Part shown: positions 12,984-52,730 of the stretch, in pieces
Position numbering within the stretch: position 1 is the stretch's first letter
Layout: the number at the start of each line of letters is the position of its first letter
Origin: Asparagopsis taxiformis
Lineage: Eukaryota > Rhodophyta > Florideophyceae > Bonnemaisoniales > Bonnemaisoniaceae
DNA length: 64,000 bases
NCBI GenBank assembly: GCA_030407315.1
Contig: JALQPE010001895.1
Location: 1-64,000, forward strand
Direction: 5' to 3'
The notes under the pieces: generated by a model
Told to the model about the DNA's origin: nothing
The model's database searches: none
Seen by the model: the letters and a program-made list of their open reading frames with translations, nothing else
Made by a program: the position numbers and the translations under genes

Positions 12984-15900
12984 TCAGATATCTAAACGCT
13001 CCCAGTAGTTGACATTGAAGGGAGGCTGTAGCAACTTCTCCCTGGAAGTTCGCAGTGATAGATGGGACCGGATAGGATGCTGGTACCTCACCGAAGAACG
13101 ACCCTCCGCGAATCCCATTCCTCCGTGATACACGTCCGTTCGGCATACAAGCAGGGAATACGGTGGGATGCGCACGTTCGTCACTGGCACGCGGTACTTT
13201 TCTTTCGCTGGATGACTTAGGCACACATGGCTGAACTTGGCGATACGAATGATGAACCCATCCGCACCAGCAGCCATCATGAAATATGATGGCGAGTTGA
13301 GAGGACCAGTTCCAGTTCCCTCACGGACGGGAACATCGGTATGCATAAGTTGCTCCTGACTACCTTCTGCGGTCAAAATCAGACGAAGACCCGTTTCTGG
13401 AAAGACCACCGCTTCTTCTCTTCCAAACCCGAGCTTCAGGTTCTCCGCACAAATCGCCTTACCTAGCTCCAGAATCAGCTTGTTCCTGTACTGCCGCGCG
13501 CTTTCTTGCTCAAGGTCATCGCAGATGCTTTTCCGGTCCGTCTTGAATACACCAGTGCTGTCTTTCGGTCGAAGTGGTTTCCACGGGTTCTTCTGACTTG
13601 TACTTGAGCCACTTGTAGTACCTTGGAATGTGCTGGCCATCTGTGTGAATAACTCGTGCGTAGCTGCTCCCACTGTAGTAGAAGAGAAAATGTCTTGCAA
13701 CACCACGTAACCAAGCTCGTCGATCATTCTTCTCTGGTAGCTGAAGTATTGTTGGCTTTCACAAGAACCGAGGGGACATACCAAAGTAGAGTAGCCTGCA
13801 GCTGCTTCCATTATCTCCGTCCGGATTGTATCAATGTCTTCTTCTGTGATATAATACTTCATTCTCGAGTTGGAAGGAACGCATAAAGGCAGCTTCTCAG
13901 GTATGTCCTCTGCGAATGTGCGGTCTGGAAGGGAGTTTTCTTGCTCGTCAGTGAAGAGTGGTGCTTCTTCTCCAGTCGTTCGTTCTCTTGCATTGACTCT
14001 ACTCTTCTTTTCCCGGGGAGGCCCAATCTCAATGTTGTCATCCGGCGTATTGGGCTCAGAAAACTTCGCGCTAGTATCTTCCCTTCTTCGCTTCTTATCC
14101 AACCTGGACTCGTTTTCATCGCCGCTTCCACCAGAACTCCTGCTTCTTCCCGAATTCTCCTTGTCCACTTCGGCCGGGCTAGTGCTGTAAGTTTCTGGTG
14201 TCCTGATTCGAAGTTTCAATATCACAGAGCGGTTCTGCGCATCTCCAGCTTGTTGTCCAGGCGTGTCTATGTCCATGCGACCACTATTGTCCAAGTTGAT
14301 ATCCAGACTTTGCGTATCGCCGCTTTGTTTCCTTCCCTGAGGAAGATCTTCTCTGACAATCCTTCCCGGCGAATTATCCCTGGCACGACTTTCCCGCTCT
14401 GCCCTTGAAGCTGAAAGACGTTCCTGTTCTTTTTGGAGAACAGCAAGACGTTCTGCTTCCCTCTTCTCAGCTGCTGCAAGACGCGTGGCAGGACGTTCCT
14501 GTCCTCCCTCTTTTGCTGCGGCAGGACGGTCTTCTGCTTCTTTCGGGGTGCTCAGAGGTGCCTCTTCTATTGCTTTCGTCGCGACAGCAGGAATCACTTC
14601 TTCAGCCACCACATTTGGAGTAATTTCCTGTTCTTCCTCCACAACAGCAGAAACTTCCTGCTCTGCTTGGGCTTCGGCAGATACTCCTTCTTCTGCTTGA
14701 ACAGGACCAGAAGTTTCCACAGTTTCCTTCTCTGTAGAATTATTTCCCTGTTCTGCGGCAGTAGGTGCTTCTTCGTCTTCTGCTTTGGCGCCATCAACAA
14801 GTGCTTTTTCTATTTCTCCGGGGGTCATGCGATTCCGTTCCCTCTCCTCCTCCGCTTTCGTCTCCTGCATTGCCTTTGTCCCGGTAGCATATTCCAGTTT
14901 GTCGTAAAAACTGTTTGTAAACATCCCGTTCTTGGTTCTCAGACTGCTACTGTCTACCACGTCGTCATGAAAGTCGACAAGGACGAATACAATGCGCTCT
15001 CCAATGCGATGATCATTATCCCCGACCTCCTTCGCGTTTTCTGCTGCCAAATCCGTTCGCACGAATTCCTCCATCGTTGCAGAGTTCAACCACTTGCGGA
15101 CGACCTCTGCCATATCATAGATGGCCAACAGAGCCAGTAGCCAAGTGCGCATCGTGAACGGACTTCCGCTTCCGATATTTCTGACAAGTCCTCTCTTCCT
15201 CCTCATCCTTGTCCACGACGCTGTCATCTCGAGCACAAACCACTGGAACCACTCCTTATCGCGCGTCCCGCGTCCGTCCGTGCCATTGCGGAATATTGCG
15301 TTATTGACAAGATCGAGCACGCACCCGTACATATCGGCAGAGTCAATTCGAGAAAAGTCCGGATCTCTTCCCTCGGTTCTTGCATCCTCGATTTCTCTGT
15401 TCCTATCCAAAGCATTGTAAACGCTAGGGATAGAGCTCCAGTACACGAAAGCAACGCTGTCTGTGCGATTGAACCCCTTCGCAATGTTGATGTACTGCCT
15501 ATACGAGTTCTCCGAACGGTTCCTGTCGGACGGCAGAATATAGCTCACTTCTTTCAGAATAGGAATAAGCCGGACAACAGGAAGATCCATCTGGTTGGAA
15601 AACCTGAGAAACTCTATGACCGCACACACATTGTCGGCAATGCTCACAGAAGCGACATCGTGAGTTTGTATATTGGCTTCGAGAGACAGTTTCAGAACCT
15701 CCAGCGCATCGAAAATTAGACGCCCGTTCGGCGCAATCAACTGTTGTACCCAAACCAATTCCAAGGAATCCCTGTTCTTTCCTGAGTACTTCTCCAGGCA
15801 TAGTTGCAGAGCAGCTATGCGATGAGAGCCATCGATGCAGTAAAACTCGTCTCCTTCGTTATCTTCCATTTTGCAGACTGTAATCATAGTTCCAGTGGTA

Positions 15901-16244
15901 GAGAAACCTCTATCCATGAAAATGCTGGCCAGTTCGTTTACACGACCCGGTCGCACCAAACGGGAGGTCACTGTCGGAAATTTCACTTTGCGAGGATCAA
16001 CTTGCACTTTAGAAGAGCTGTACTGAGCAATAGTGATGCTTTTCTCTTCAGCAGAAGGAGAATTGCTCTTCTCCGCTGTAGTATTCATGATACTATTGTC
16101 TCCCATTGTAATCCCTGCAATCTCAGTTCGTTCAATCGGTTCTCTGTTCAAATGTTGTGTAGACGATGAAATCCACAATTGTGGTACCTCCGAGTGCGCT
16201 TCCCGTCTCTCAGCTTCCTCTCTTATACTGTCCGGACAAGACAT
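12984..16244 (-). CDS. ParB-like domain / 2-oxoglutarate Fe(II) dioxygenase fusion protein
   Basis: An intact 1086-residue ORF with an ATG at 16244; a second ATG at residue 47 is possible. Residues ~78-150 form a ParB/Srx-like domain (VDPRKV, then IDGSHRIAAL at 137-146), the fold of bacterial ParB CTPases and of sulfiredoxin-like nucleases. Residues ~460-620 are Glu/Ala/Arg-rich and probably coiled coil; ~640-770 is charged and disordered-looking, with KKRRRE as a possible nuclear signal. The C-terminal ~290 residues resemble a double-stranded beta-helix dioxygenase: HTD at 968-970, a second metal ligand H1040 in YHGGMGF, and a basic R1053 or R1059 that could hold 2-oxoglutarate. I infer oxidation of a nucleic-acid or chromatin substrate, since the companion loci carry DNA methyltransferases; the substrate is unknown. 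It is flanked on both sides by palindrome arrays and shares its strand with the transposase. Confidence 0.8.
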   Translation of the reverse strand: MSCPDSIREEAERREAHSEVPQLWISSSTQHLNREPIERTEIAGITMGDNSIMNTTAEKSNSPSAEEKSITIAQYSSSKVQVDPRKVKFPTVTSRLVRPGRVNELASIFMDRGFSTTGTMITVCKMEDNEGDEFYCIDGSHRIAALQLCLEKYSGKNRDSLELVWVQQLIAPNGRLIFDALEVLKLSLEANIQTHDVASVSIADNVCAVIEFLRFSNQMDLPVVRLIPILKEVSYILPSDRNRSENSYRQYINIAKGFNRTDSVAFVYWSSIPSVYNALDRNREIEDARTEGRDPDFSRIDSADMYGCVLDLVNNAIFRNGTDGRGTRDKEWFQWFVLEMTASWTRMRRKRGLVRNIGSGSPFTMRTWLLALLAIYDMAEVVRKWLNSATMEEFVRTDLAAENAKEVGDNDHRIGERIVFVLVDFHDDVVDSSSLRTKNGMFTNSFYDKLEYATGTKAMQETKAEEERERNRMTPGEIEKALVDGAKAEDEEAPTAAEQGNNSTEKETVETSGPVQAEEGVSAEAQAEQEVSAVVEEEQEITPNVVAEEVIPAVATKAIEEAPLSTPKEAEDRPAAAKEGGQERPATRLAAAEKREAERLAVLQKEQERLSASRAERESRARDNSPGRIVREDLPQGRKQSGDTQSLDINLDNSGRMDIDTPGQQAGDAQNRSVILKLRIRTPETYSTSPAEVDKENSGRSRSSGGSGDENESRLDKKRRREDTSAKFSEPNTPDDNIEIGPPREKKSRVNARERTTGEEAPLFTDEQENSLPDRTFAEDIPEKLPLCVPSNSRMKYYITEEDIDTIRTEIMEAAAGYSTLVCPLGSCESQQYFSYQRRMIDELGYVVLQDIFSSTTVGAATHELFTQMASTFQGTTSGSSTSQKNPWKPLRPKDSTGVFKTDRKSICDDLEQESARQYRNKLILELGKAICAENLKLGFGREEAVVFPETGLRLILTAEGSQEQLMHTDVPVREGTGTGPLNSPSYFMMAAGADGFIIRIAKFSHVCLSHPAKEKYRVPVTNVRIPPYSLLVCRTDVYHGGMGFAEGRSSVRYQHPIRSHLSLRTSREKLLQPPFNVNYWERLDI

Positions 16245-16943
16245 TCCCTACCTACGTTCAGTCCTGATGAACCTTACGCCGCACCCGCTCAGCACCTCTG
16301 ACTCTACCTGATCCTGATACCTCCACAAAGCGTTTAGCCCTTTCCATCAATCTACACCTAATAGTATGTACCTCTAGCGCATATAATGCAATCGAACCCG
16401 TTTACCTCACCACGTCAATTATCATTCATATTCCAACAACCTATTTCATCCACACTCTCCACCTCGCTTCTTCTTCCGTACCATTGATTCCTATCAATCG
16501 ATTCTACGTGAGTTTTATACATTTACTACGATCCACCTCTCCTACAAGTCTGAAAAATTCATTTCTACACTAACTTTTGCTACTCACAAATGAACGGTTC
16601 CCGTGCAGGCCACTGCTTGAATTTCTTCCTATTGGCGTACTCGGCTGCAAAGGATTCATAGACTATTTAAACGGTGATCATATAAATGGTTTTCAATGTG
16701 CTCCAATGGACAATACACCAAAGAACATCAATATGAATTCATTTCAACTACCTATTCACTACTGCGATTCAGTTTTCTTGCATACCAAATCTCATTGCGT
16801 TCCTACCCTAGTCGATTCAAAATGCTTCCTCCTCGTCAGTTGATCAATATTCCTTATTCCTTACAACGAGCAGGTCCTCTGGACATCCTAAAGTTGGTTA
16901 CTTAACCTTAACTATCGATGAATTTGCTGTAATGAAACGTTTT
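16245..16943. other. Spacer between ParB-dioxygenase promoter side and palindrome array
   Basis: About 700 bp, AT-rich, with no supported gene. It must contain the promoter of the minus-strand ParB-dioxygenase gene; no convincing TATA box or conserved block with the left terminal repeat was found. Confidence 0.5.
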
Positions 16944-17459
16944 CTTACAGCAAAGTCATCGTTACGATGACTTTGCTGTAAGAAAAGAAAACATTACAGC
17001 AGCCATGATTTCTTTACCGGGTAAAAAAATTGTGGCCGCTGTAATGAAACGTTTTCTTACAGCAAAGTCATCGTTACGATGACTTTGCTGTAAGAAAAGA
17101 AAACATTACAGTAGCCATGATTTCTTTACCGGGTAAAAAATTGTGGCCGCTGTAATGAAACGTTTTCTTACAGCAAAGTCATCGTAACGATGACTTTGCT
17201 GTAAGAAAGCAAATCATTACAGCGGCCACAATTTTTTTACCCGGTAAAATTTCTTGCTGATTTTTTACCCGGTAAAAAATTCTTCGGCCACTGCAAGGAA
17301 ACGGTTCCTTACAGCAAAGTCATCGTTACGATGACTTTGCTGTAAGAAAGCAAATCATTACAGCTGCCACGATTTTTTTACCCGGTAAAACATTCTTGGC
17401 CACTGTAATGGAAACGTTTTCTTACAGCAAAGTCATCGTAACGATGACTTTGCTGTAAG
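16944..17459. repeat. Array of five 39-nt odd palindromes
   Basis: Copies start at 16944, 17056, 17167, 17308 and 17421; central bases are T, T, A, T, A. Spacing is 112, 111, 141 and 113 nt. The intervals hold TTTTACC(C/G)GGTAAAA palindromes (one in the short intervals, two in the 141-nt interval) and an inverted TTACAGC(A/G)GCCA / TGGCC(G/A)CTGTAA pair. It lies between the transposase 3' end and the ParB-dioxygenase 5' side. Confidence 0.95.
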
Positions 17460-17579
17460 CATACCTCCCTCCATCCTCTCAGATCCTCTCCCCACTACTT
17501 TGCACCAATCCACCACCGCCCTAGAGTGTACAATTCATATGTGATGCATCTGGTTATTCATTTTATTCTTCCCTAAAAA

Positions 17580-20500
17580 TCATGCAGCCCTCGGTGGAAA
17601 TCCGTCTCGCCTACATAGTGCATATATCTCTCCACCCTCCAGCAGTCCGGGTCCGTGCCTTACCTCCCTCATGTTCTCATCATATTCGCATACACTCCCA
17701 TTGCAATAGTGCATACCAAACACCTCAGTGACTCCCTCACTCATCTCCACAATTACTGTTCGTCGCCTCTCTTCGACCTTGAACACTCCTTCATCAGTTT
17801 TTTGCAAACCCAGGCAAACTCCATAAGCTGTACCTTGCTCATCTCTCGCACTCTCGTTCCTCAGGATAAAGAACGCTAGAACAATAAAAAACCGCGGTTC
17901 ATAATTAATTCTTCCCCGCATTATCTCTGATGTGAGACGAGACGCCGGGTACAGAATCGCTTGTGAAGTTGCACCATCCTCACATTTCATCTGTTCAGGG
18001 CAAACAGCATGGATGATAGCTCCTGATTCTAGAGAGCCAGACCTCTGCACTGTTTTCCTTCCCCACTCTGTCGTAGTGCTTCTAGAAACTCTTCTCACCC
18101 ATTCGGCATACTTTCCACACCCGCTTGTTCCGCTTCCGTACCTTTCGGTAAAGAACCGTTTGAAAACACCTACAGCACCCTCTGCCATATCACATTTTCC
18201 ATTCATGTACTCCTTGACCTCGTCAATAGATATACCTCCATGCCCTCTCCACGTCACAATTTCACCATCCGCCGACAATATCTTTCCTCGACGCTGGGAG
18301 AGAAGCTGGAGAACCGGTTCCTGGAAGCAGTTTTTCACTACCTCGTCTTCCACATCTATTTCTCTCCCTAGCTCCTGTGAAAGAACGTTGACCATTTGAG
18401 AGCATTCGGACGAGGACCAATGTTGTGGCTCCATGCCGATTTCGCGCAAAACAATGGCCACTCTCGTCTGCCAGTCATCCGCAAGAACTAATTCCAGCGC
18501 TGAAAGCTGTTCGCTTTGGTGATTGGACATTCTCACACCTTTCTTCAGCGGCTGATGCATCCGTTCGAATATAAGCTCCTGCACGTGCTTCACAGAGCCG
18601 TAGGCAGGAAGCGTATGAACACAAAACTCGACAAGACGATGAACATTAGGCTTGTCCAAATGTGCTCCTGCTCCCTTCACTTTCCGACAATACTCATTCA
18701 ACGTCTCCACGTAGTCTACAGTTCTTCCCAGAATGTATTCATTCCTGCCACCTTCTCCGTCAGCCGTCTCTACTTCATGGGGACCGTCTTTCCACCATAC
18801 GGGCATGAAACTAATACACGAAACCAGCTTCTGAAACATCACTACTAGTTTGACGGCCCCATCAAATTTTTCACGATGACCTTCCCCTTTCCCATCCATC
18901 ATTCGAGCTGCGTTTTCGAATGCCATAGGTGCTATCAGAAGCACACTGAATATGTCACTCATGTTCATGGAAAGCAGATTGTTGGTTCCAAATAAACGGT
19001 TCTGCCTTCCCATCCTGAACTTCTTCAGAGCGCCCAGAATTTGCAATTCAGCTACCTCTCGAATTCGTGGGCTGGCAGCTGAAATACAAGCGTTCAGTAC
19101 ATCTTGTGCCAGTCCAGACAATAGATGGTCAGGTGCTATCACTGCGGAACGGTACGGGTCAAAAATTGCTGGGACAACTGAAACTCCGTTTTCCGTCTTC
19201 GGTACTTCTTCCTGCACTGCTTCCAAGGAAGTGCTCAGGACATGAAATGGTAAATCTTCCCCTTCTTCTGCAGCCAGTCCGAGAGTGCGAAGCTGGGTTT
19301 CTGTGGCATCCTTACGTGTCGATGCATTCCGATACTTGCTCCTGGCATGCGTCGATGTTTGCCCGTTCACTACCGAAGTGTATGCATTCTTCGTGCCACC
19401 AGTACTGCTCAGGTCATATTTGCGGAAACTGCAGATGTGGCACGGAGAGTTTGATGTGTGTCCAAGAACATCCAGGGTATGTGAAACTGCAGGATAGTCT
19501 CCAATGCTCCCCACTGGGTCTAGAAATACCACAATATCTTCTCCCTCTGCATTTTTCGTTGGGAAACCCTCTGTGCTTCCTCGCACTATATCTTGAACGA
19601 TATATCGCAATACACAATTTGTGGACACTCCCGGAGGTGGCAAACCAATCACTCGAACCGCTTGGTAGCTTCCCCTTTTCCGAGGCGGTAGATTGAGAGG
19701 TAACATATAGCATCCACCAAAACTTCCCTTCCTGCTTGTGAATGGTTCAAAGTCATCCGTGTAAAGGAGAAATCGGTAAACAAAGTAGTTTCGACCATCC
19801 TCCAGCTTTCCCCAACATGGTGCATCTTCTCGCGGAGACGCTGGGTGCCATTGCGACCTGTGGTCTCCGAAACCATCCGAGAACACCCCTGAAACACGAA
19901 TTTCTTCATAGTTGGGGCTTCCTAGTCTATCGGGCGGGTTTCTGGCTTCAGCAAAGCTCGCGCCCGGTGAAAAGCAAAGTAACATGGTGGATGCTTCTCC
20001 GACCTGCTCTTTCAAATACCTGTTCACCAATACGACGTGTGGAACAATATCACCCTCTTCCATTCCAATTGGTAATAGAACGGTTATCACGTCCCCAGCT
20101 CGTGTTCCTTTTCCCTTGGCTCCTGCTCCGATTACACATTGCGATATCGCTCGCAGAGCATGCTGCCTCTCCCATTCCAATAGATGTGACATTCGCGGCT
20201 GCAGATATTTTTCGACATGCACATCATGCTCACCGTCGTGTCGAGCCTCATAGGTAACTATGGTCCTAGCATGAAGTTCCCACAACGACGTAACCGCCAC
20301 TCTTCTCCTCTTCGGTTTCCCACCATCTCTGTCATTCTTCCTGAACCCTTTTGCTCTTTCGATGACGGCAACCTGACGAGCTCCTGGATGACATCGGATT
20401 CGAATTGCTGTTCCATCAGGTACATAAATGTGCTTCAAACCCTTTTTCCCATCGCTGTCAATGGGAACAACTGCTGTGCGAACGAATGGGTCGCTCAAAA

Positions 20501-21383
20501 CACCCCTCCTGCACTTTGCAATGAACGAATCTTCAATGCTGCACTCTGCGGTTGATTTTTCTCCTTCTGAGCTTCGATTGTTCGCATCACTGCGGAATGA
20601 TTCAAAGATTGGTCGAGTCTGGACATCTTTCAGAGCCCATGTGCTTGGGAGTACAATACGAACTTTCGCCATTCCTCCACAATTGTCTCTGTCATCTGTT
20701 GTTCCACGGGTTCCTACTGCACCTCGATGCTGTGCAGCTCTTGCTCCGCTCTTTCGAAGGTCTATCGGAAACTCGATGTCACAGCTCTTTGCATAGCAGT
20801 GTTTCCTCAAGAATGGTAGTATCTTCTGTCGCATCACAGAGTCCGACGGGACGTGCTCACTTGGATCTCTGCGGAAATTCATTCCGAACAGGGTACCTTC
20901 ATAGTGGGCTCTTGTCATTCTTTGAGTTCCACTCAGCTGAAGAGCCCCATACATCGCAGGCCATTGTAGTAATGCCTTGAAATCACCACATGCTTCATCC
21001 CCAGCATTTCGGTCTATCGGGCCTCCAGTTGAAATGGAATCAGAACCTCGTCCGGTTGCTTCTTCCGATTCCATTAGCGTGCTCGATGCTACGTAGATGT
21101 CACTTCCAGCTTCATCGTTGTTGCTGTACACATCAATACAACCTTCTATTGTGTCACCCATAGGGATTGGGGACTCCAATAGGTCATCTGTGGTACACTC
21201 ACGTCGTAGCTCATTACCTCTCGGGATTTCTTTGTTCATGCAGGCTGCATCACTGCTGCGGATTTCTCCCTGCAGTTTCCCAGGAAGCTGTTTACTGGGA
21301 CTGGCCACATTGAGTGAATCGAATCTCGCCTTTGTCCTACGACTTGTGGTTTTCTTTCGAATAGGAGTCCGTCTCGGAGCCAT
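17580..21383 (-). CDS. CMC-type (CACTA/Plavaka-like) DDE transposase
   Basis: Intact, 1267 residues, ATG at 21383. The central region follows the order of CACTA/Plavaka transposases: LLYTDDF (~540-545, probable first catalytic Asp), a GG-Y-LPLNLPPRKR segment, VRVIGLPPPGVS, GSIGDYPAVSH (~626-635, second Asp), then the Cys/His box GHTSNSPCHIC (~641-651). KPNVHRL (~911) and ELIFERMHQPLKKG (~936-949) carry the likely third acidic residue. The N-terminus is basic. The C-terminus ends CRRDGFPPRAA, matching DGYPPRTA of the transposase at 29475-33497. Its start lies ~105 bp from the right terminal repeat, which probably supplies the promoter. It should act in the nucleus to excise and integrate element A. 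Family assignment rests on motif order, not a search. Confidence 0.82.
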   Translation of the reverse strand: MAPRRTPIRKKTTSRRTKARFDSLNVASPSKQLPGKLQGEIRSSDAACMNKEIPRGNELRRECTTDDLLESPIPMGDTIEGCIDVYSNNDEAGSDIYVASSTLMESEEATGRGSDSISTGGPIDRNAGDEACGDFKALLQWPAMYGALQLSGTQRMTRAHYEGTLFGMNFRRDPSEHVPSDSVMRQKILPFLRKHCYAKSCDIEFPIDLRKSGARAAQHRGAVGTRGTTDDRDNCGGMAKVRIVLPSTWALKDVQTRPIFESFRSDANNRSSEGEKSTAECSIEDSFIAKCRRGVLSDPFVRTAVVPIDSDGKKGLKHIYVPDGTAIRIRCHPGARQVAVIERAKGFRKNDRDGGKPKRRRVAVTSLWELHARTIVTYEARHDGEHDVHVEKYLQPRMSHLLEWERQHALRAISQCVIGAGAKGKGTRAGDVITVLLPIGMEEGDIVPHVVLVNRYLKEQVGEASTMLLCFSPGASFAEARNPPDRLGSPNYEEIRVSGVFSDGFGDHRSQWHPASPREDAPCWGKLEDGRNYFVYRFLLYTDDFEPFTSRKGSFGGCYMLPLNLPPRKRGSYQAVRVIGLPPPGVSTNCVLRYIVQDIVRGSTEGFPTKNAEGEDIVVFLDPVGSIGDYPAVSHTLDVLGHTSNSPCHICSFRKYDLSSTGGTKNAYTSVVNGQTSTHARSKYRNASTRKDATETQLRTLGLAAEEGEDLPFHVLSTSLEAVQEEVPKTENGVSVVPAIFDPYRSAVIAPDHLLSGLAQDVLNACISAASPRIREVAELQILGALKKFRMGRQNRLFGTNNLLSMNMSDIFSVLLIAPMAFENAARMMDGKGEGHREKFDGAVKLVVMFQKLVSCISFMPVWWKDGPHEVETADGEGGRNEYILGRTVDYVETLNEYCRKVKGAGAHLDKPNVHRLVEFCVHTLPAYGSVKHVQELIFERMHQPLKKGVRMSNHQSEQLSALELVLADDWQTRVAIVLREIGMEPQHWSSSECSQMVNVLSQELGREIDVEDEVVKNCFQEPVLQLLSQRRGKILSADGEIVTWRGHGGISIDEVKEYMNGKCDMAEGAVGVFKRFFTERYGSGTSGCGKYAEWVRRVSRSTTTEWGRKTVQRSGSLESGAIIHAVCPEQMKCEDGATSQAILYPASRLTSEIMRGRINYEPRFFIVLAFFILRNESARDEQGTAYGVCLGLQKTDEGVFKVEERRRTVIVEMSEGVTEVFGMHYCNGSVCEYDENMREVRHGPGLLEGGEIYALCRRDGFPPRAA

Positions 21384-21487
21384 CTTGATGTTTTTGTTCT
21401 TTTCTTCTTCGCTCAGTTTTGTTGCATAGAATACAACTCTAAACTTCTATGACATGACTACTATCTCAATACAGTACTACTACTTTT

Positions 21488-21870
21488 AACCGTTACGAAA
21501 CCTTTCCAGGCTTTCATTCGATCCAATGAACTGGTTCACCACAATGCTTTGCCCTATGCTCATTGCTTTATGCACATTGATTGCTATTTCATCCGGACTC
21601 AACATCGTTTTGCTATCTTGTATCGCATCCCCTAACCACAAACCCAGCCAAGATGTATCCATTTCCGGAAAACGGCCGTTTATTTCGCAGTGATGCTCTA
21701 GGCACTAATACTGAATCTGATTTTCTCATACACGTACTTCCTACTCGTATACTCTACCATTTTCGGCCCTATTTACAAGTTGAAAGCACAATCTCTCGTT
21801 GAATCGTACTCGGTGTGATATCTTAAATTAGCATAAATTTATATATTGCAATGCAGATTCACTGCTCGCT
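21488..21870 (-). repeat. Right terminal inverted repeat of element A
   Basis: Inverted partner of 1-392. It includes the GATCCAATGAACTGGTTCAC block (21520) and ends TTCACTGCTCGCT at 21870. It sits directly upstream of the transposase start, so it doubles as a promoter region. Confidence 0.85.
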
Positions 21871-22206
21871 TGCAACATGAAAATTATAAAATTTCTCCCA
21901 CACTGCTGTTTCCTAGCCGCCCACATCCACGTGGCCCGCTTTGACTGCCTGCCAAGTGTGCTCAGAGCATGCAATGACGTCATCGATATATACCGTCCAA
22001 ATCATCACTGGAAGCGCGGACTCCTCGTCCAGGAAAGTGCGCCATTTTTCCTACTCCTCGCCTCCCCCTTTCCAGTAGGCCCGATATGCTAGTGTTTTTC
22101 CTATATTTCTGTAGTGATGACGTCATTATAGACTAGAGAAGGCGGTAGAAGATACAATAATTTTGCGCCTGTTCTGCCAGGTCATGTGCTTCAAAGCGTA
22201 ATTCGC
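21871..22206. other. Spacer between element A and the tandem dimer
   Basis: No supported gene; a 71-codon frame at 21877-22092 has nothing recognisable. It contains two GACGTCAT boxes (21974 and 22119). Confidence 0.4.
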
Positions 22207-22344
22207 ACCCTAGGTATCGTTTTTCTGGGCCTCCCATCGCACCGCTCCGTTTCAAATTCATCCCTCTATTGTTAGAGTACACGTCATTTCCGCCCGCAGA
22301 GTGCTACTTAAACAACAGATTCTGGAGATCCCTGTTTCCATCTT

Positions 22345-22482
22345 CATATCCGTCGGAAGCAAAGCAACAACCCTGGCCGTGGAAGCCGTATAGATCATCT
22401 AAACTGCTTCCAAAGCGTAAGTTTTAGATCATCAATACGGCTCCCAAGGCCAAAGTTGTTGCTTTGTCTCCGACGGATATGA
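22345..22482. repeat. Foldback (long imperfect hairpin)
   Basis: The arm from TTCATATCCGTCGGA (22345) through GCAAAGCAACAA and GGAAGCCGTAT returns inverted as ATACGGCTCCC...TTGTTGCTTTG and TCCGACGGATATGAA (to 22482). The arms are roughly 45-60 nt with mismatches. The loop contains a second small pair GATCATCTAAAC / GTTTTAGATCATC. The same structure lies at about 24305-24443 in unit 2. Confidence 0.85.
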
Positions 22483-29100: not shown

Positions 29101-29111
29101 AATGACTAGTT

Positions 29112-43229: not shown

Positions 43230-44763
43230 ATGTTCAGGTCTAGATCTCTTTTTACTAGAAAATCAGCACAAGTTACCACTCTGGTGTCCTCTCTTTTCAA
43301 CAACAGACTTGTGACATCCATGTTCGTCGCGTTTCGAACCATTGCAGAGTTCATCAAAACCTCTGTTACCCCAAACTCGTTCTGTGCAACATCTGTACCG
43401 TGTTCAAATGAAGATTCCTGCACTACTTTGCTTCTGGCTTCCCTTTCCTTCTCTCAGACATCCAGTTCTAATTCTGAGGTCAGGCAGTCCAAGAAATCCC
43501 TAATTGGAACAGCTGTGGGGAAAAAGCATGTGTTCCTGAAACGTGCTATTGTCGGAACTGCGTTTATTTCTATGGCAAATGACAGAATTGTACGATGGAA
43601 GGATTCGGCGACGAGGAATTCTGGTACCCTTGACCCTGGGGAGGAGGATGACCTGAACAGCAATACCATTTCTCGTGACTACGCACTTCGCAATGCAACC
43701 ATCGTGCCAACCAATAAGCCTGCTTGGTTGCAGATTTCGCAGCGGGCTCTTTTCCATGCCATGGATATTTCGATGCCAACGGAAACAGATCGACCTGCGG
43801 CACAGTCCACAACTCTACCAATCAATTATTCGAAACGTCGCCGACTCTCGGGTTCTAAAGGAGAACAGCGCCGTACTGGTTCTTCCTCATCTTCGTCTTC
43901 TTGTGTATCTAATCTTTCTCCTTCGGACTTACAGTCCATTCCGATCGTTACTTCGGCACTGCGGCAGCTCACACAGTTTTTCAATACTTCCCGGAAGCAG
44001 ATGAAAATGGAATTAGTCAAACATGCATTCTTCCTCATCCATCGAGATATGCAGGCTAAAGTTTCTCTTTCGCCTGACAATGACATTTCTGCATTGGATA
44101 TGTGTCCATCTGAAAAAATTCCGATAACTTCGAAAGCTTACGGCACAGGGGATGAGTCTCAAGCTATCTATTCCAAAAATGATGATATCTTCTCGGATTT
44201 TATTTTGAGTCGACCTGAGCTTCACATTCAGGTTACTTACAAAGTTCAGGTTAGCGGCGCCGTAGACGGCTCCTGCAATGCAGGTACAAAGGTGCAGGTA
44301 CAAAGGCCCCGGTTGAGAGATTGGCCGTCTGTTCTTTTTCTTTTCTTACATTAGCTATGATATTGTTGTGTAGTTTCTGCCAATGCACACAACTCGAGAT
44401 GCTCTGTCACGAACCCCATTCAATTCAGGCATGTTATCGCATTGCAATTTGCCTGCACGGGTTATTCACCACAGCCCTTACAATGGCGCCTACCGGTAAT
44501 TTCGGGAATGATGGATTCCCTCTGCGTGTTACATGGGGTCACATCGACCTCCGTGATTACCTCATGGGGGTGATTGCCTTCTAGGTATTATTAGGAAGAA
44601 GAGAAACATCACTGGAGAGGAATACATGTCGGTGCGGTTCGATTCTAATGCCACACAGATGGAACAATCCTACGAAAACCCAACAGCCAGGGTAGCATCT
44701 AATGTTCATTGTGTACCTCTAGAGGAAGATGATGAACTTGGTATATCTTTAATTGATGTGTAG
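43230..44763 (+). CDS. Unrecognised gene, probably interrupted by introns or frameshifts
   Basis: The first frame (ATG 43230, 374 codons to 44354) has a Ser-rich stretch with NYSKRRRLSGSKG (possible nuclear signal) near residue 206. Two later frames look coding and abut it: 44380-44583 (LEMLCHEPHSIQ...GNFGNDGFPLRVTWGHIDL) and 44560-44763 (CLLGIIRKKRNITGEEYM through a final acidic LEEDDELGISLIDV before TAG). The three pieces together look like one gene broken by an intron near 44300-44350 (GTACAAAG donor-like, CATTAG acceptor-like) and a one-base shift near 44570. I recognise no domain. It lies just downstream of, and on the same strand as, the methyltransferase-SET gene. Confidence 0.45.
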
Positions 44764-44890
44764 ATTTCTGTTTACTGTTCTGCTATCTTTGCCTACGTAA
44801 CCTGGCATTGTTTGCCTCTAGTTCTCAGTATACATGTGTCTCTATTAGCCTGGCAGAACCGTTTTTGCTTTATTCATTGCACTACTGGTA

Positions 44891-46585
44891 TCATTTTATG
44901 TACTCCTCTGCCCTTTTGTCTGAAAAGTTATACCCCACCACGTCTTTGACTAGATCTTCCGATATCAACTTGTCTATTCGCCATGGTTCGCCAAAACCTC
45001 GGAATACGACGTAGGGTATATGAATTCGAAATGTTCCCCACAACACATCCCCTGTCTGTCCCCTTTTCTTATGCGTTATCGGTTGCCATTCTATACGAAA
45101 ACTCTTCTTCCCGTCACCTTTCCGCCCTTCCCGACTCGCATCCCCGTCAGGCCTCCTATGTACGGCACAAATCGATGGGCATTTTTTCAGCTCCATGCCA
45201 TGCACATATTGACCTTGGACCGCAGAACTACTCTTGCGCACTAGGCACCACGTGTTCGATTTTGCTCCGGATACGCAGAACGAGCTACTGCCAATTGCAA
45301 CAGATGATGGATCTCCGTTCGTCGTTTCTGTGCACAACAATGCACCAAGCAAGCGCAAGAACAATGGCCTCCTAGGCCGATTTCCGCTAATCACTCCCCC
45401 TTCTTCCTCTTCCACTGCCGCTCCAGGCTTTCGTCTGTGCAGCAATGACTCCATTCGCCACGGGTGAGGTAATCCTAACAAGTCCGATACTGCTGCAAAA
45501 CTGAAACATGTAATGTTCACAGCTTCAGAACCAGTTCCGCTCACTGCCTCATGAAGCCCAGGGTAAACTTTGTAATAACATCCTGCATACAACTCTGTTG
45601 TTCCCTTCAACATTTCCCGGAATACGGTTGTGCTCAATGAAGCAGGAATATGCACTGGACCACTCACAACTGTCCCACTGGTACATGCACCATCCACCTC
45701 ACTATGCGGAAAATCCGTCCCGGAGTTTGACAACGTAACTCTGTTTGCCTGTTCTACAGCTTTCTCGACTGAGCGGCGCAAAAGCATCAATAGAACCGGT
45801 CCAGTGGACGTGAGTGCAGGTTCTATTGCAACTTTCCCATCGTAAACCATCCGATGATCGCCACCACTTCCAGAAAGAATAATACTTTCTAGTGTTCTCT
45901 GCCTCTTCTCCATGCCACTGTATGTGTTGGAATCAAGTACCGATTCCACTTTTGGCTTCTTCTTTTGCGGGGACATCGCTTCAGATTCACCATCCGATTC
46001 GACATGATGTTCCACTCCGGCCTCTTCGTAGTCCACAACCTCTCCGTTGCTCCTTCGCCACGGTGTTGGTGGCTGACCCCCGGACATCAACTTACTTCCC
46101 AGCACAAATTTTACGTGTTCATAGGAGACGCAAGGGTAATTCCTTTCAGGAATTGCATCGTATAACAATCTGCCTTCTGCAACCACTATTTCATCATGCC
46201 TTGGCTTCACAGAATCCGAATACCGCCACTTTGACACTTCCGTTACTGCAATATCCTTTTCCTCCGTCGTCAACTTCACAATTGCAGTATCCAAATCCTG
46301 ACCCTGCTGCTCCACCACTCCGGGCGTGTACACGCCATCTCCTCTGTCCACATCGATGCGGTCACCCACTGATGGTTTACCCGAGCAAATAGGATACTGC
46401 TCGGGAAGTTTCATTTCCACTACCACAGCCTTCCACCACATTGAGTCGTCCCCCACCTGGAACCATACCTCTATTTGGGTGCCGACAGACGGAAGTGCAT
46501 CAACAGCTGCAGCTCGTTCACGCTCCCGACACGCTACTGCTTTTTCGCTTTGGCGCCTAATTCGCAATGATTCCCGCCTGGTCAT
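44891..46585 (-). CDS. Unrecognised basic protein with a possible Tudor/chromo-like region
   Basis: I take the ATG at 46585 (564 residues, MTRRESLRIRRQ); the frame extends to 46663 only without an ATG. Residues ~30-130 contain two tandem small-barrel-like segments (VWFQVGDDSMWWKAVVVEM and GDRIDVDRGDGVYTPGVVEQ), reminiscent of Tudor or Agenet modules that read methylated chromatin. Then come an acidic patch, KKKPKVES, and a longer unrecognised half ending with a conserved-looking FRIHIPYVVFRGFGEPWRIDKL. It is convergent with the gene at 43230-44763, leaving only ~130 bp between them. The Tudor/Agenet suggestion is weak and comes from residue pattern alone. Confidence 0.6.
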   Translation of the reverse strand: MTRRESLRIRRQSEKAVACRERERAAAVDALPSVGTQIEVWFQVGDDSMWWKAVVVEMKLPEQYPICSGKPSVGDRIDVDRGDGVYTPGVVEQQGQDLDTAIVKLTTEEKDIAVTEVSKWRYSDSVKPRHDEIVVAEGRLLYDAIPERNYPCVSYEHVKFVLGSKLMSGGQPPTPWRRSNGEVVDYEEAGVEHHVESDGESEAMSPQKKKPKVESVLDSNTYSGMEKRQRTLESIILSGSGGDHRMVYDGKVAIEPALTSTGPVLLMLLRRSVEKAVEQANRVTLSNSGTDFPHSEVDGACTSGTVVSGPVHIPASLSTTVFREMLKGTTELYAGCYYKVYPGLHEAVSGTGSEAVNITCFSFAAVSDLLGLPHPWRMESLLHRRKPGAAVEEEEGGVISGNRPRRPLFLRLLGALLCTETTNGDPSSVAIGSSSFCVSGAKSNTWCLVRKSSSAVQGQYVHGMELKKCPSICAVHRRPDGDASREGRKGDGKKSFRIEWQPITHKKRGQTGDVLWGTFRIHIPYVVFRGFGEPWRIDKLISEDLVKDVVGYNFSDKRAEEYIK

Positions 46586-46663
46586 AGTTCCTCCACCAAA
46601 TAAAGATACTAGAGCCCACAATTTGCAATTCTGTTTAGGAAAAGTCTTCGTTGACTTCTTCAA

Positions 46664-47517
46664 TACTACTCACCCATATCCGTAACGTCCAATTTTGCAT
46701 TTTTACCGTATGATACGAAATCACTACAATGTTCCCCACTGCCACAAAAGTTGTCAACTACACTACTACTGCGTTTATGTTACTAATAACGCTTAAAGCC
46801 AGGGCGAAAATCACTATTCGGGTCAATCCCGTGTATAGGGGAGTGGCTTGATTACAGACTTTAGCGACTAAAATAGTAACCAAGCCGTATTATCTGTGCT
46901 AAAAATCAATGTAGATGGTTCCATTCTTTCGACCATACCCTATCTATGATAAAACAATGACCATATCGAGATAGGATAGTTAAAGCCATACACTTTGCAT
47001 TTCTCCTCTTCCATATGATATCATATTCCTCATGGACATCCAAAATGTGACTTCATCTACGTGGATATCACATGGGAACAGTCAGTACCAGTCCATCTCT
47101 CTACCGTCCTTGCACCCCTACGGCTGCCATCCATTGCACAGACTGGAGTGACCATCAAAGATCATGGTTCCAGTCCATCATGGTACTGTCATACATATGG
47201 TTCCGCCGTTCCATCATTCCAGCATAGAATTTCCAAAAATAATGGAATATGCCACCTCTGGTCACCGTCATGACCAACGCGACGTGTCTTTGTCCTTTCC
47301 AATGTTATTTTTCCGTACAGTACTGGAAAATTCCACCTGTCACGGTGCTTACACCCACTCCCACGGTGCAGTTCCATTCCATTACATTCTTTACGGTATT
47401 TCCACTACTTATCTATGGCACGGCGCCGGTAATTTCTGGGATTTTTTTGATGGTTTGCCATTCCACTAATTTCTAATGGTCCAGACCATAAAATTTACTG
47501 GTTTTTCAAAAAATTGC
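46664..47517. other. About 850 bp without a gene
   Basis: 47050-47480 is dense in TTCCATT / CCATGGTACTGTC and CAGTACTGGAA motifs, resembling inverted 27240-27610. This suggests the end region of a transposon family; clear termini were not found. Confidence 0.4.
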
Positions 47518-48192
47518 TTATGCTGTGAATAGGCGACGCGGCAGGTTCTTGTTGTGATTTCGGATGATAGACAACGCTTGGAAATACATCAATACCTCGA
47601 ACGTTTCCGGTGGAGCAAGAACGAAGGCGCTTGGTTCCCCGCGCTGCGGCGCCTGTAGTGGCGAAGGAAGCATGTTACATCCAATAAGGAAGGTCTGCGG
47701 CACGATCCCAGAAAGGATGCAGTGCTCAACCCATTGCCCGATACGCTCATCCTGTCTTGAAAACTCGGCAATCGGTAATGCCAGACGAACAATCTGCTTG
47801 GCTCGCTCAACGTTCATCTCTGCCATGACGATTTCGGCAACATCCGCCTCGACTCCAGCATTCTTCCAACGACCGCTGAAGGACATGCTGAGTCGACCTT
47901 GCAGCGCCAGAAATTGTTCTTCCGTGCCCTGCGCAACCCAAGCGCCAAGGTCCGCGTATGTGAAACCTCCCGGCTTGTCCGTCAAGTCTGCGAAACTTGA
48001 GTGGGCGAACAAATCCAGCAAGAGGCGGAGGAAGTCTTTGCCAGCGAGAGTAGTTTCGCGGGCGGCGCGACCTACGTTTCGACGTGTACCCATGTCACTA
48101 GAATCCTCCCAAGGGCTAGCGGGTTCGCGCAGAATTGGCACGGTTGCGTCGTCAACGATCGGATTGCTGTTGCGCCTGCGCTTATTCGTCAT
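47518..48192 (-). CDS. Hypothetical 224-residue protein
   Basis: ATG at 48192 (MTNKRRRNSNPIVDD), open to 47518. The basic start could be a nuclear signal. The body is predicted mostly helical (LRLLLDLFAHSSFADL; NVERAKQIVRLALPIAEF), with no cysteine motif or catalytic signature I know. Base composition is more GC-rich than its flanks, so it may be cargo or a gag-like remnant. A plus-strand frame of similar length (47564-48202) covers the same bases and is probably its shadow; which strand is real cannot be settled here. Confidence 0.4.
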   Translation of the reverse strand: MTNKRRRNSNPIVDDATVPILREPASPWEDSSDMGTRRNVGRAARETTLAGKDFLRLLLDLFAHSSFADLTDKPGGFTYADLGAWVAQGTEEQFLALQGRLSMSFSGRWKNAGVEADVAEIVMAEMNVERAKQIVRLALPIAEFSRQDERIGQWVEHCILSGIVPQTFLIGCNMLPSPLQAPQRGEPSAFVLAPPETFEVLMYFQALSIIRNHNKNLPRRLFTA

Positions 48193-49884
48193 AATGGAAT
48201 GAGTGGAAATTCGGTACAGGATGGCGACCGCTCGGCGAGACAGTCAAATTTGACGACGTATCTCGTGACGTTTGCACTCTTTCGTGAGGAACACTGGTTG
48301 ATATCGAACGGAACAGAGTATACGGGTACACAGCACTGGAAAGGTCTTGAAACCCGTAACCGGTGTAGGTAATGAGTTGTGACGGATACGTGGTAGAGAA
48401 AAATATTAAAAAGATTGTGATTCCCTGTCTTTGAGTGTTGTACTGCACGGCCGCCATGGCGACTGTGACTGCAGTCACATAGGTTGTCACAGGTGCATCA
48501 CGCTTACCAGGTGAGCGACATCCGGACGGCCACTGGACATGGGGATGTCCAGCTCAGATGCATTGCTGGCCAGACCAGAAATTCTACAATTTCGGGCAGA
48601 AAAAATATTGCAAAAGACATCGATTTCGGCGGTCGATTGTGCCGTACGGCACATCCACATCTCAAAAACATGTTCACATGTGCATGTTTTTGAGAATAGT
48701 CCAAATTTTAATTCAAATCAGGATGCAGATATTCGTCTTCTAGCATTGTCAGAACACATTCGTATAACCACATTTGGAGAACCTGAGCCCAGAGCTATCG
48801 GTTTTGGCGGGAGCTAAGCCATATCTCATATAATCAGTAACTACTTCCCGCCAGCTGAGTGGTGGAACCCCTGCTATTTCTACCAACGAGACATACGGGG
48901 TGTCAACTCGGCAATCGTATATGATTTTGGTGCTAAATTTATTCAAGAGACGAATGGGCTTCGAAAAGGAGCCCAACAACGTCTTCTTGTGATCCATGGG
49001 TATAGGACTACTCTATTCTTCTCCAGGCTTCCACCATAGCCTCCTCCACCCCCGTTAATGGAAAGAATATCCGAACCGCACCTCAACATGTTCTTCTTGT
49101 GATCCATGGGTACTGACATCTCACATGTTCTCCAGGCTTCCACCATAGCCTCCTCCACCTCCGTTAATGGAAAGAATATCCGAACCGGACCTGAACATGT
49201 TTTTCTTCTCATCCATGGGTACTGACATCTCACATGTTCTCAACATGTGAGATGTCAGTACCGGAGAAGTTCTCCAGGCTTCCTCCGTAGCCACCTCCTC
49301 CACCTCCGTCTGTGGGAATCAACACAACATCACCACTGCGTCTTACCTCACATCCACATCTCTCCGGGATGAAAACGGACGGACGACATAGGGTTTGTAG
49401 ACGTTTAGAATCTTGTTAGAAAAAAGTAAACGAAAGAGAACTTCTCTTTCATTGAATGACATCTCGTCCCTGTCGCAATATGTTCCATTTTCAATTTCTC
49501 GGGTTGCACACCCATCATGGGTGATCAAGGCCTGGATCGAACCCTCCGAGGGTCTTCGATGGATAAGACAGATAGTGGAAGGCTTTTAAGCCTGTGACCA
49601 AGCGGCTATTGATTGGTTGGAGGAAGGAAATTACATTGCTATCCATGTGCATTGATTATGTGCAAGAAAAATCACCCAGCACAATAGCTGAAGCAAAATA
49701 CATGAAGGAGAGAAGAGAATCGACGGGAAATCATTGGATCAGACTATGAAATCGCATATGGTGCAGTCATTGAAGTACCTACTGCCCGACTTGCACCGCA
49801 AATTGTGCCATAGTTGAAGCACTTGCTGTAGCTTTTCTAGAACGAGTATTGTTTAATTGATTCACATCGCATCGCACACATTTT
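48193..49884. other. About 1.7 kb of repeats and hairpins without a supported gene
   Basis: Contains TGTGACTGCAGTCACA (48466), a hairpin with 12-nt perfect arms CTCAAAAACATG...CATGTTTTTGAG (48661-48694), the 108-bp repeats at 48970-49315, and a tRNA-like remnant near 49530-49610 (see rejected items). Open frames are short. Confidence 0.5.
48970..49315 (-). repeat. About 108-bp tandem repeats with a perfect hairpin
   Basis: Three diverged copies of a unit that on the minus strand would read INGGGGGYGGSLEN followed by a stop in most copies. One copy carries a 45-nt hairpin with perfect 21-nt arms and a 3-nt loop (49218-49262). The Gly-rich reading may be a relic of a coding repeat. Confidence 0.8.
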
Positions 49885-51195
49885 CTATTTTGCTTGTGTA
49901 CTCTTCTGTTGCATGTTTGCACAAACAGCACAGATTCGCTCATTTGTCTCGCCTCCACTGCATAAGTCATGCACCTTTTTTCGGCACTTTGTGCAAACAG
50001 TGAGTAGGCGCTCGGGCCGTTGAGCATCAGGGTTATTTGCGAGGATACATAACGGTCCTGATGCACATATCACGGACTTTCTCGATGATGGACCATTGGT
50101 TGTATTGGGGCGTGGTAGTTCCGTAGTTTCTCTATTTTCGGATGAGATATGTGAGGAATACGCAATATCGTTCTGGTCAGAAAGATTTGTGGCATCTGAG
50201 CTCTTCTCAGAGGGATCAGCATCGGTTTCAGACAGCTCTTGTCTCTCTTTGCCGAATTCATCTTCTTGGAACTCTTCAGTATCTTCGGTACTGGAGTTGT
50301 ATCCGAATCTGGAAAGGATACAAATAGTCTCAGCCTGTGATTCGCCTACTCCCAGTGTCCGAGATCTTGTATTACGAGTGCTCTGTGTTGAATTATTTAT
50401 GTCCTCCGCGCACCTCAGTAAACGATTCCTAGCCAATCTGAAACAATCGCTGCTCTGCTCCACAAGTGTGCAAGACCTTCTTGTGGCGAGGCAGGAAATT
50501 CCAGTTGTCATTGTACCTGCATACGTGTCCAGCACATTCCCATCCTCCGGAGCGAATGTAGTCATAATCTCTGCCAAAAGGAATGGATTCTTCTCTTCGA
50601 CACGCACTCTAGCTCGGCTGTTTGGGTATGTGAGCTTGTTCCTAACTATAGGAATGTTATCGATAACATTGAATTTTCGTTTGTGGGATACTCGAAGCAG
50701 ACAGTATTGAGATTGGAGATTTGCTTTGAAACCAGATGGGTGTTGCCCGGCACATCTACCAACTAGTGCAAATTCCACGGCATTCTGTGGGAATGTATTA
50801 TTTCTTGTACGTTGGAGTCCGGAACTCTCTTTGACAAATGTCAGTGGATGTTGCATCATTGAAATATCTGTTGTCCGGAATGCATTGAACCATCTTGGCA
50901 GTAAATGAAATGATGAAAATATCACGACATATCCGCCCGGCTTAACCATTCTTCTCGTGAACTGTACAAATGACTCCATCTCAGCATCGTCTATGTAATC
51001 ACTGTACTCAGACCCTGTATGAGAGGCATTTGGTTTCACCATATATGGAGGATCCGTTAGCACGAGGTCGAACGTTTGCTCTTCAGATACAACAGTGTTG
51101 CGATAGTGCTGCCAGGACATTTGGTAGCATCTCATATTGTATGATTCAAGCAGAAAAATCCCATTTGAGTCCTTTGTTCCTGTACTAGTATTCAA
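49885..51195 (-). CDS. Beta-class DNA methyltransferase with C-terminal PHD-like finger (element C)
   Basis: The frame opens at a TTG; the first ATG is ~20 codons in, so the N-terminus probably comes from the overlapping ParB-like frame by splicing. Motif IV DLVLTDPPY lies near residues 43-51. RMVKPGGYVVIFSSF follows, and motif I VLDTYAGTMTTGISCL (~221-236) comes after: the beta-class order seen in N6-adenine enzymes such as CcrM. A ~100-residue acidic linker precedes a zinc finger (ICASGPLC ... VCTKCRKKVHDLC ... ICAVC), PHD-like in spacing. The stop is at 49885. The DNA coding the finger is a perfect inverted copy of 56614-56777. The target base and site are unknown. Confidence 0.8.
   Translation of the reverse strand: MNTSTGTKDSNGIFLLESYNMRCYQMSWQHYRNTVVSEEQTFDLVLTDPPYMVKPNASHTGSEYSDYIDDAEMESFVQFTRRMVKPGGYVVIFSSFHLLPRWFNAFRTTDISMMQHPLTFVKESSGLQRTRNNTFPQNAVEFALVGRCAGQHPSGFKANLQSQYCLLRVSHKRKFNVIDNIPIVRNKLTYPNSRARVRVEEKNPFLLAEIMTTFAPEDGNVLDTYAGTMTTGISCLATRRSCTLVEQSSDCFRLARNRLLRCAEDINNSTQSTRNTRSRTLGVGESQAETICILSRFGYNSSTEDTEEFQEDEFGKERQELSETDADPSEKSSDATNLSDQNDIAYSSHISSENRETTELPRPNTTNGPSSRKSVICASGPLCILANNPDAQRPERLLTVCTKCRKKVHDLCSGGETNERICAVCANMQQKSTQAK
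49918..50081 (-). repeat. Inverted repeat arm encoding the PHD-like finger (left)
   Basis: 164 bp, identical without a mismatch to 56614-56777 in inverted orientation. It codes the C-terminal finger of the methyltransferase. Confidence 0.97.
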
Positions 51196-52730
51196 TCTTT
51201 CGGATGTTTGAGTGTGAGGTACTGAAACTGAGTTTGCCTTGGACTGCTGAGAGGAAATTTTTTCTTACCAATATCCTGATCGCCGATGGAGGTGGATGAT
51301 TGTTTGCCAGTCTGGATGCTAGAGTCATCTGCATTTAAAGTTTCCAAATCTTCTTCATCTTCGTCTGAAGCACTAGGTGCACACTTCGGGCCTGGTTCCT
51401 GTGGTTCCTGAGTCTCGGCAGGGTTTTGATGCAGTGAAGGTTCTGATGAGTTGAGTTCATTACCTGATTCGATGTTTCCCTGAGGATCGCATTTTTCTCG
51501 GAGAACACGGCTTTGTGTATCCATATACTTCTTCATCATCCAATCGAACTGAGATGGACATGCACTCTTGAATACCTTGAGCAATGAAGGAAGTATGTCA
51601 ATGTCATTTCCAGCGTTACTGAGTACCTCTTCATCGAGAACAAACGTACGAAGAAGATTTTTCTGAATTACTTCCAGGTCTTTCGGCCATACATCGGAAC
51701 CCAGGAAGCGTTGAAACTTCTCCGCCTCAAGACGAGCAGCTTTGGCTGCTACAACTTGTTTTTGCATGACCGCCGCGGGGACAGTACGAAAGTTGTTCTG
51801 CTTGCAGTACATCTGCGCACGGTAAAGAGAATTGATTTGGTCCGCTTCAGTGGAGTTCATGAACGCTGAGGAGCCTTTGAGAGTATTCGTAGAGATCATA
51901 TCTCTATACACTCTACAGTCAAGGGTTGGGAGTGGATTGAGTGAACGTCCCTGCGATGATGCTCTCTGTTTCTCATAAGATCTCGCGAGCTCCGGGTGTT
52001 CCCCGTTCACCAATTCCCCAACCTTCTCCAGCACAATGCTAGATAGTTTCATAACACACCCAGCAAGCTGTCTCTGAGTGCTAGTCGACCTTCCATCCCC
52101 TCCTGCGTAAAAATCAGCGACTGCTGTTACGAATCCCTTAGGGATCCCAGAATCATCCAGACATCGCTCCCTTTTCAACGTATTACAGTCGTCATGAAGA
52201 GATTTCATAAGGTCGAAAACTGTCGTTTTGATGATGTAAGAGTCCTCCTGAAGAGCGTTCCTTGCTCGAGCGTACGCACGAAGCTTATCTAAGGGTGATG
52301 GGTTTATGCACAAAACAGTCCAAGAGAACCCAGCCCATTGCTCTGGTGACTTTTCCATCAAGCGCTGAAGAACAAGGAGGCGGTGAAAGCCATCTACGAT
52401 TCCGAACCAAGCCGCAAACTTTTGAACTTCCTTTTCTGCATCTTCGTTGTTCTTTCCATGTTCCTCCATGAGATAGGATTTCGGATAACTGCGAAAAGCA
52501 CCTTCAAGTTTAACAACGACAGCTTTGTTCCCGGCACTGCTTATTCCTCTCTCTATTATTCCATTTTGAGCCCCACTTCCGGTTGTGAAGCTGTGCTCTA
52601 GTCTATCGAGGCCTGAAGGAGATATGTGACGAACTTTTGTGAGAGGCACGCATGATCTTGGGTCTACCTGAATGATTCTTGCACCTTCTTCTATGTCGCC
52701 AAATAGGATTTGAACACGCTGGATTTTCAT
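51192..52730 (-). CDS. ParB/Srx-like domain protein (element C)
   Basis: I place the start at the ATG at 52730 (512 residues, MKIQRVQILFGD); the frame runs on to 52838 only from a GTG. Residues ~12-120 form the ParB-like domain: ARIIQVDPRSC, DRLEHSF, and GIVDGFHRLLVL carrying DGxHR. The rest is helical, then an acidic tail (DEDEEDLETLNADD). The last codons overlap the methyltransferase frame (-1). On the minus strand a good donor GTAAGA at 51268 pairs with AG acceptors at 51228 or 51222 (41 or 47 nt); either choice restores the methyltransferase frame without a stop. That would give a ParB-methyltransferase-PHD protein parallel to the single-ORF fusion at 39563-43060. Confidence 0.75.
   Translation of the reverse strand: MKIQRVQILFGDIEEGARIIQVDPRSCVPLTKVRHISPSGLDRLEHSFTTGSGAQNGIIERGISSAGNKAVVVKLEGAFRSYPKSYLMEEHGKNNEDAEKEVQKFAAWFGIVDGFHRLLVLQRLMEKSPEQWAGFSWTVLCINPSPLDKLRAYARARNALQEDSYIIKTTVFDLMKSLHDDCNTLKRERCLDDSGIPKGFVTAVADFYAGGDGRSTSTQRQLAGCVMKLSSIVLEKVGELVNGEHPELARSYEKQRASSQGRSLNPLPTLDCRVYRDMISTNTLKGSSAFMNSTEADQINSLYRAQMYCKQNNFRTVPAAVMQKQVVAAKAARLEAEKFQRFLGSDVWPKDLEVIQKNLLRTFVLDEEVLSNAGNDIDILPSLLKVFKSACPSQFDWMMKKYMDTQSRVLREKCDPQGNIESGNELNSSEPSLHQNPAETQEPQEPGPKCAPSASDEDEEDLETLNADDSSIQTGKQSSTSIGDQDIGKKKFPLSSPRQTQFQYLTLKHPKD

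Follow-up and report, generated by a model that had tools for sequence, protein, structure and literature searches.

Bacterial-type ParB-like domains joined to DNA-modifying enzymes have precedents in eukaryotic transposons. As far as the available part of that report goes, Sola1-1_Ec32 of Ectocarpus and similar transposon proteins of green and red algae include an accessory gene combining a ParB-like domain with an N4/N6 methyltransferase (MTase), for which binding and marking of the element's own sequence was proposed (PMC12477816). Fungal TET/JBP dioxygenases occur in many DNA transposon lineages, including EnSpm, and are thought to aid escape from silencing; the consulted portion of that paper also mentions that oomycete transposons have SET genes and that Vandal elements regulate themselves (PMC12730594). 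A ParB-like domain with a writer and an oxygenase in a transposon are therefore each already known. Here I describe a 64,000-nucleotide stretch of the red alga Asparagopsis taxiformis (hereafter the window), which is the start of contig C1771 (157,266 bases) in an assembly of 141.5 Mb and 3,156 contigs. In it, large, recently active DNA transposons, labeled A, B and D, are predicted to carry bacterial-type ParB-like domains joined to mark-adding or mark-removing enzymes.

The bacterial ParB/Noc/KorB-parS systems combine the ParB fold with palindromic sites. Both features recur here, the structures matched being of this group, but the nucleotide motif reads GxHR and not GxRR, the carrier is a eukaryotic transposon, the domain is fused to enzymes, and CTP use and site binding are hypothetical. 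The likeness to Sola1-1_Ec32 lies in a ParB-like domain with an N4/N6 DNA methyltransferase, in a protein of ∼1100 amino acids encoded opposite to the transposase of a giant DNA transposon; relative to the available description, the window also has a ParB-like domain fused to a 2-oxoglutarate-type (2OG) oxygenase-like region, fusions with SET and PHD-like domains, an element that pairs two such genes, and palindromes in several copies, and is set apart by CACTA-like ends (A and B) or a DUF7869 partner (D) (PMC12477816). With the fungal transposons it shares a 2OG dioxygenase in DNA transposons, EnSpm included, whereas the oxygenase here has no Pfam TET/JBP match and "ParB" is absent from the main text of that paper (PMC12730594). 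VANC of VANDAL is also an element-encoded, sequence-specific protein acting on its own silencing, but the available part of its description mentions no writer or eraser domain (PMC10398659). A preliminary description of the window knew of no described eukaryotic system with this combination; this fails for the ParB-like domain with an MTase, known from Sola1-1_Ec32, and stands for a ParB-oxygenase fusion that shares its element with a paired writer and repeated palindromes, which was not found in the literature searched.

That description, whose open reading frames (ORFs) I confirmed in position, placed ParB-like domains at four separate loci, three with a clear DGxHR core and one worn. The core is present at 12984-16244 (A), 36946-38262 (B) and 51192-52730 (D); for the supposed worn copy, the N-terminal region of 39563-43060, profile comparison gave no match with the remaining ParB alignments. 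A single transposon holds the loci at 36946 and 39563, and the four loci amount to three elements. Membership of the DGxHR region in the ParB/Srx fold was found for A in the predicted structure, with ParB, Noc and KorB as best structural matches, and for B by profile. A ParB/Srx-fold domain, shown by fold in A and by profile in B, is combined with a 2OG-like region in one protein. The ORFs at 36946 and 34667, and those at 51192 and 49885, described as overlapping or abutting, each form a single gene in other copies.

Two beta-class MTase loci had been predicted, and both were recovered: PF01555 is matched over its curated cut-off (E = 1.5e-12 in 39563-43060 and 6.4e-11 in 49885-51195), and in both proteins DPPY precedes a D-x-F/Y-AGT S-adenosylmethionine motif, the order seen in beta-class MTases. 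The MTases of B and D are thus predicted N6/N4 DNA methyltransferases, and with DPPY the likelier product is N6-methyladenine (6mA). For the two proposed oxygenases, the HxD...H...R motif was found: the 2OG regions of A, B and the diverged relative L076 share an HxD, an R and, beyond the HxD, an H that precedes a glycine-rich stretch. Among the domains placed alongside, SET is matched over the Pfam cut-off in 39563-43060 (E = 3.3e-5; by eye, its tail has GxG-like and N-x-S stretches and no clean NHSC). PHD, a finger defined by C4HC3 zinc ligands, has no Pfam match in the scanned proteins, its Cys/His pattern, devised after seeing it, being found in five of the six proteins searched and not in A, and the BAH-like tail of the D DUF7869 protein falls below the cut-off (E = 0.17).

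Between diverged relatives, most synonymous differences approach saturation (0.71-0.87; L076 against L077, 0.54), and ratios are for this reason not quoted. Nonsynonymous differences are 0.14-0.31 for ParB, 0.08-0.24 for the MTase, 0.24 for the 2OG part, 0.19-0.36 for the D-type PHD piece and 0.48-0.51 for linkers. To judge from these values, the ParB-like domain is under somewhat looser constraint than the MTase and much tighter constraint than the linkers.

The association extends beyond the window. All genome copy counts given here are lower bounds (the best candidates of each search were scored) and, unless otherwise noted, count the copy in the window too. Of the 46 ParB-2OG places listed, 30 have an MTase-SET gene within 12 kb, always on the opposite strand and 1.3-2.6 kb away, and 27 have the B transposase, always on the same strand and 3.2-4.1 kb away. 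Conversely, ParB-2OG is nearby in 30/40 MTase-SET places and 27/35 transposase places listed; the remaining cases may have a partner as well, since these counts are lower bounds and some contigs end nearby. The close, divergent arrangement of ParB-2OG and MTase-SET in B is no local accident. Among the matches listed, the MTase-SET protein has 40 rows, all at 96-100% identity, the B transposase 37 (36 at 96-100%, one at 89%), and B ParB-2OG 96, with 46 at ≥95% identity, many with an open frame of ∼1230 amino acids, and 50 at 69-73%. For A, all 42 scored ParB-2OG places among the matches listed are 100% identical with an open frame of 1087, indicating a recent burst. These data support the proposal that transposons repeatedly associate ParB-like domains with either a 2OG-type oxygenase or a predicted DNA methyltransferase; the proteins may write, read and erase marks.

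The window contains 36 hairpins with perfect arms ≥14 and loops ≤60, against none in ten base shuffles, and 25 of these contain, overlap or enclose one unit, ACAGCAAAGTCATCGT-W-ACGATGACTTTGCTGT. This unit, the A-type palindrome of 33 bp, has 18 copies, fourteen in A and four in a decayed neighbor element, with no mismatch in any and none inside the 11 ORFs checked; 100 dinucleotide shuffles gave 0. Its aligned core columns are fixed except at the center while the flanks average 45-78%, suggesting that it did not arise from copying of whole repeat units alone, and some local homogenizing process is possible. It was not found in the other loci compared, none of them an A copy. B has a different palindrome, so that those between genes in A and B are family-specific; the B type is found again in further B copies and in L076, where it follows the ParB gene and has N14 and few changes. 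Each half of the B palindromes at 33859-33903 and 38921-38965 contains GATC, a possible adenine methylation target, which the A palindrome lacks. The palindromes look like putative sites for a dimeric protein, for which the ParB-like domain is the obvious candidate and the transposase the main rival.

My confidence is evenly divided on whether these large DNA transposons (A and B EnSpm/CACTA-like, D of another kind) carry their own epigenetic toolkit, targeted by ParB to their own palindromes. The ParB-like domain would load at the element's palindromes and recruit the enzyme fused to it, allowing the element to mark or clear its own DNA. The MTase would write an amino-methyl mark, 6mA being more likely given DPPY, the oxygenase would erase a mark, and SET and PHD would link DNA marking to histones; the net effect may be escape from silencing or timing of transposition. 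I hold only tentatively the more specific proposal of a eukaryotic ParB-parS-like system, in which ParB-fold proteins would read clustered, invariant, family-specific palindromes of their own element, with MTase and SET adding and 2OG removing marks across it from there, giving each family a private, sequence-addressed epigenetic switch. If true, writers and erasers encoded by the element and directed to a defined DNA site would make transposon self-recognition directly testable, and a eukaryote would offer a natural pair of predicted mark enzymes with a sequence address. The ParB fold might then also have a use in eukaryotes that goes unseen by the Pfam ParB_N model, whose sole match in the assembly is one bacterial-looking contig. 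Contig C1526 (locus L001) holds, by eye, paired ParA- and ParB-like genes of the kind found on bacterial plasmids, and is probably a contaminant or symbiont contig.

A number of observations weigh against a ParB-targeted toolkit. The ParB-like domain of D is weak, aligning with the A/B type over 26 columns at 47% probability (hhalign; score 32.6, against ≤25.4 in 100 column shuffles), with a structure model too poor to use, and no palindrome with arms ≥13 and loop ≤40 was found in D. The canonical ParB nucleotide motif (P-motif) is GxRR, and GxHR is the variant of sulfiredoxin and SerK; every supported copy here reads GxHR (DGxHR in 6 of 6 aligned rows), so that these domains may lack clamp loading. 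The 2OG region, in which a double-stranded beta-helix would be expected, is assigned by its motif, the structure model being unusable for this part: no relevant Pfam family is matched (the one match is Glyco_hydro_48, E = 0.3), and the best PDB profile match is ectoine hydroxylase, E = 0.73. A tblastn search of the window with two MTase proteins (E 1e-3) found no MTase relative in A, and the writer-oxygenase pair is therefore not universal. Binding, catalysis and methylation are themselves predictions, which I infer from sequence and models.

The palindromes could instead be sites of the transposase or of an accessory DNA-binding protein, as TnpA of maize En/Spm has its own sites, or RNA hairpins, the ParB fusions then being general anti-silencing cargo that finds chromatin through PHD and SET readers and not by sequence. 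The EnSpm-like ends of A and B and the other repeats that A carries beside its ends agree with this, and RNA of these 33-45 bp palindromes would fold, but most are intergenic and internal, not at the ends, and the core is identical in 18/18 copies where RNA hairpins would be expected to tolerate compensatory change. I consider this rather unlikely. That histones or other proteins are the substrates of the oxygenase and SET, leaving the MTase as the only DNA enzyme, appears improbable: the fusion to a ParB-fold domain and the palindromes beside the gene suggest DNA targeting, although SET domains typically methylate proteins, the best, non-significant profile match of the 2OG region is ectoine hydroxylase, and TET/JBP and AlkB models gave no match in the Pfam scans, a miss which does not exclude TET/JBP.

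Sub-cut-off Pfam matches of the A/B-type ParB domains (ParBc_2 "nuclease" 0.078, GmrSD_N 0.054, DndB 0.084, DUF7664 0.14) would fit a restriction-modification-like or addiction module, with the ParB-like protein as a nuclease or modification-dependent enzyme, the MTase protecting the element and the 2OG enzyme altering the mark. The best structural matches are nevertheless ParB, Noc and KorB, D has the MTase and ParB-like region in one protein, and the tblastn search found no MTase relative in the window's A, making this a very doubtful explanation.

Table 1. Positions of elements, genes and palindromes in the window.
Feature	Position	Strand	Remarks
Decayed relative of A ParB-2OG gene	435..2700	+	fragments 435-536, 1679-1936, 1903-2625 (tblastn)
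Four A-type palindromes in neighboring decayed element	3198..3596	.	
Element A, EnSpm/CACTA-like transposon	4466..24167	.	18-bp perfect inverted ends CACTACGGTGTTGAAAAG
Other A-type palindromes in A	4802-4834, 5587-5901 (3), 7608-7738 (3), 12558-12590, 12698-12730		
A ParB-2OG protein, 1086 aa, intact	12984..16244	-	ParB-like domain (residues ~72-196) fused to 2OG-type oxygenase (C-terminal third, HxD at residue 968)
Five A-type palindromes between A's two genes	16947..17456	.	upstream of ParB-2OG
A presumed transposase, 1267 aa	17580..21383	-	no Pfam match
Element B, 20.45 kb transposon	27076..47527	.	perfect 14-bp inverted ends CACAGCATAAGCAA; 2-bp target-site duplication in 2/5 copies compared
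B palindrome, GTAAAAASTGATCTAG-N13-inverse	29118..29211	.	two imperfect copies
B presumed transposase, 1340 aa	29475..33497	-	no Pfam match
B palindrome between ParB-2OG and transposase	33859..33903	.	
B ParB-PHD-2OG gene	34667..38262	-	two ORFs in window (36946-38262, 34667-37024); one frame of ~1233 aa in other copies
B palindrome between divergent ParB-2OG and MTase-SET genes	38921..38965	.	one mismatch
B predicted beta-class N6/N4 MTase + SET protein, 1165 aa, intact	39563..43060	+	N-terminal "worn ParB" unsupported
B accessory ORF, 374 aa	43230..44354	+	no assigned domain
B accessory ORF, 590 aa	44891..46663	-	Tudor/BAH-like by eye only; no Pfam match
Element D	49636..56777	.	cut at both ends in window
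D ParB-MTase-PHD gene	49885..52730	-	two ORFs overlapping by 4 bases (51192-52730, 49885-51195); one 983-aa frame in other copies
D DUF7869 protein, presumed transposase	54163..55974	+	PF25273 7.4e-48; BAH-like tail joined in intact copy (window: 56034-57014)

The carriers are of at least two kinds, in line with the several transposon types first proposed. The transposases of A and B share 28% identity over 859 columns, the ParB parts of the two elements 27% and the 2OG parts 29%, suggesting that A and B are distant members of one transposon lineage, while the DUF7869 protein of D has no detected similarity to either transposase. The terminal inverted repeats of A and B begin with CAC, an EnSpm/CACTA feature, as is a target duplication of 2-3 bp; for their transposases, the EnSpm transposase domain gave no Pfam match up to E 10, and a C-x2-C stretch is seen by eye. 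The right end of A occurs again at 25779, in a region present twice, so A may span 4466-25779; no target duplication in the window fits either right end. Direct repeats with ∼35-bp steps lie in the right part of A, at 23185-23809 and 25147-25421.

The boundaries of B were located by DNA searches. With 43061-49060 as query, at least 27 other places gave long matches, 24 of 27 ending at query 4466-4470 (∼47527); the exceptions are C443, ending at 4485, and C363 and C436, ending earlier. With 25800-29474, there were at least 39 other long rows, 25 of them starting at query 1274-1277 (∼27076), which is also the start in the second piece of matches at 5 further places. Perfect inverted 14-mers stand at the two boundaries (CACAGCATAAGCAA...TTGCTTATGCTGTG). 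When both ends were compared in the window, C2057, C824, C1596 and C1630, a target duplication was seen in C1596 (GC) and C1630 (GT) and in none of the other three. The shared match boundaries, the inverted 14-mers and the duplication in some copies indicate a 20.45 kb transposon with CACTA-like ends. The ParB-2OG gene of the window's B differs from an intact copy by length differences of one base and of 15 bases. An 804-bp segment flanking the right end (47532-48335) is also found beside the B right end in C2217 and C226, but flipped.

An intact D copy on contig C2431 (loci L064/L065) is 11.17 kb long, with 2331-bp inverted ends of 99.9% identity, GTTG (4 bp) on both sides, and divergent ParB-MTase-PHD and DUF7869 genes; the former differs from the window's gene by one base in length. 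Because the PHD-coding piece of D lies inside the inverted end, the window holds 174 bp twice (49918-50091 and 56604-56777). The C2431 copy interrupts another ParB-bearing gene (L064 544-2277, itself two ORFs).

Overall the window reads as nested mobile elements, and a look for host genes found none among the 15 window ORFs scanned with Pfam (0/15). A retroviral-type aspartyl protease ORF at 26474-27040, a retroelement fragment, adjoins the left end of B, and positions 57541-64000 hold a GC-rich retrotransposon with a gag-like ORF (Retrotrans_gag, 1.9e-6, Pfam) and a long ORF downstream.
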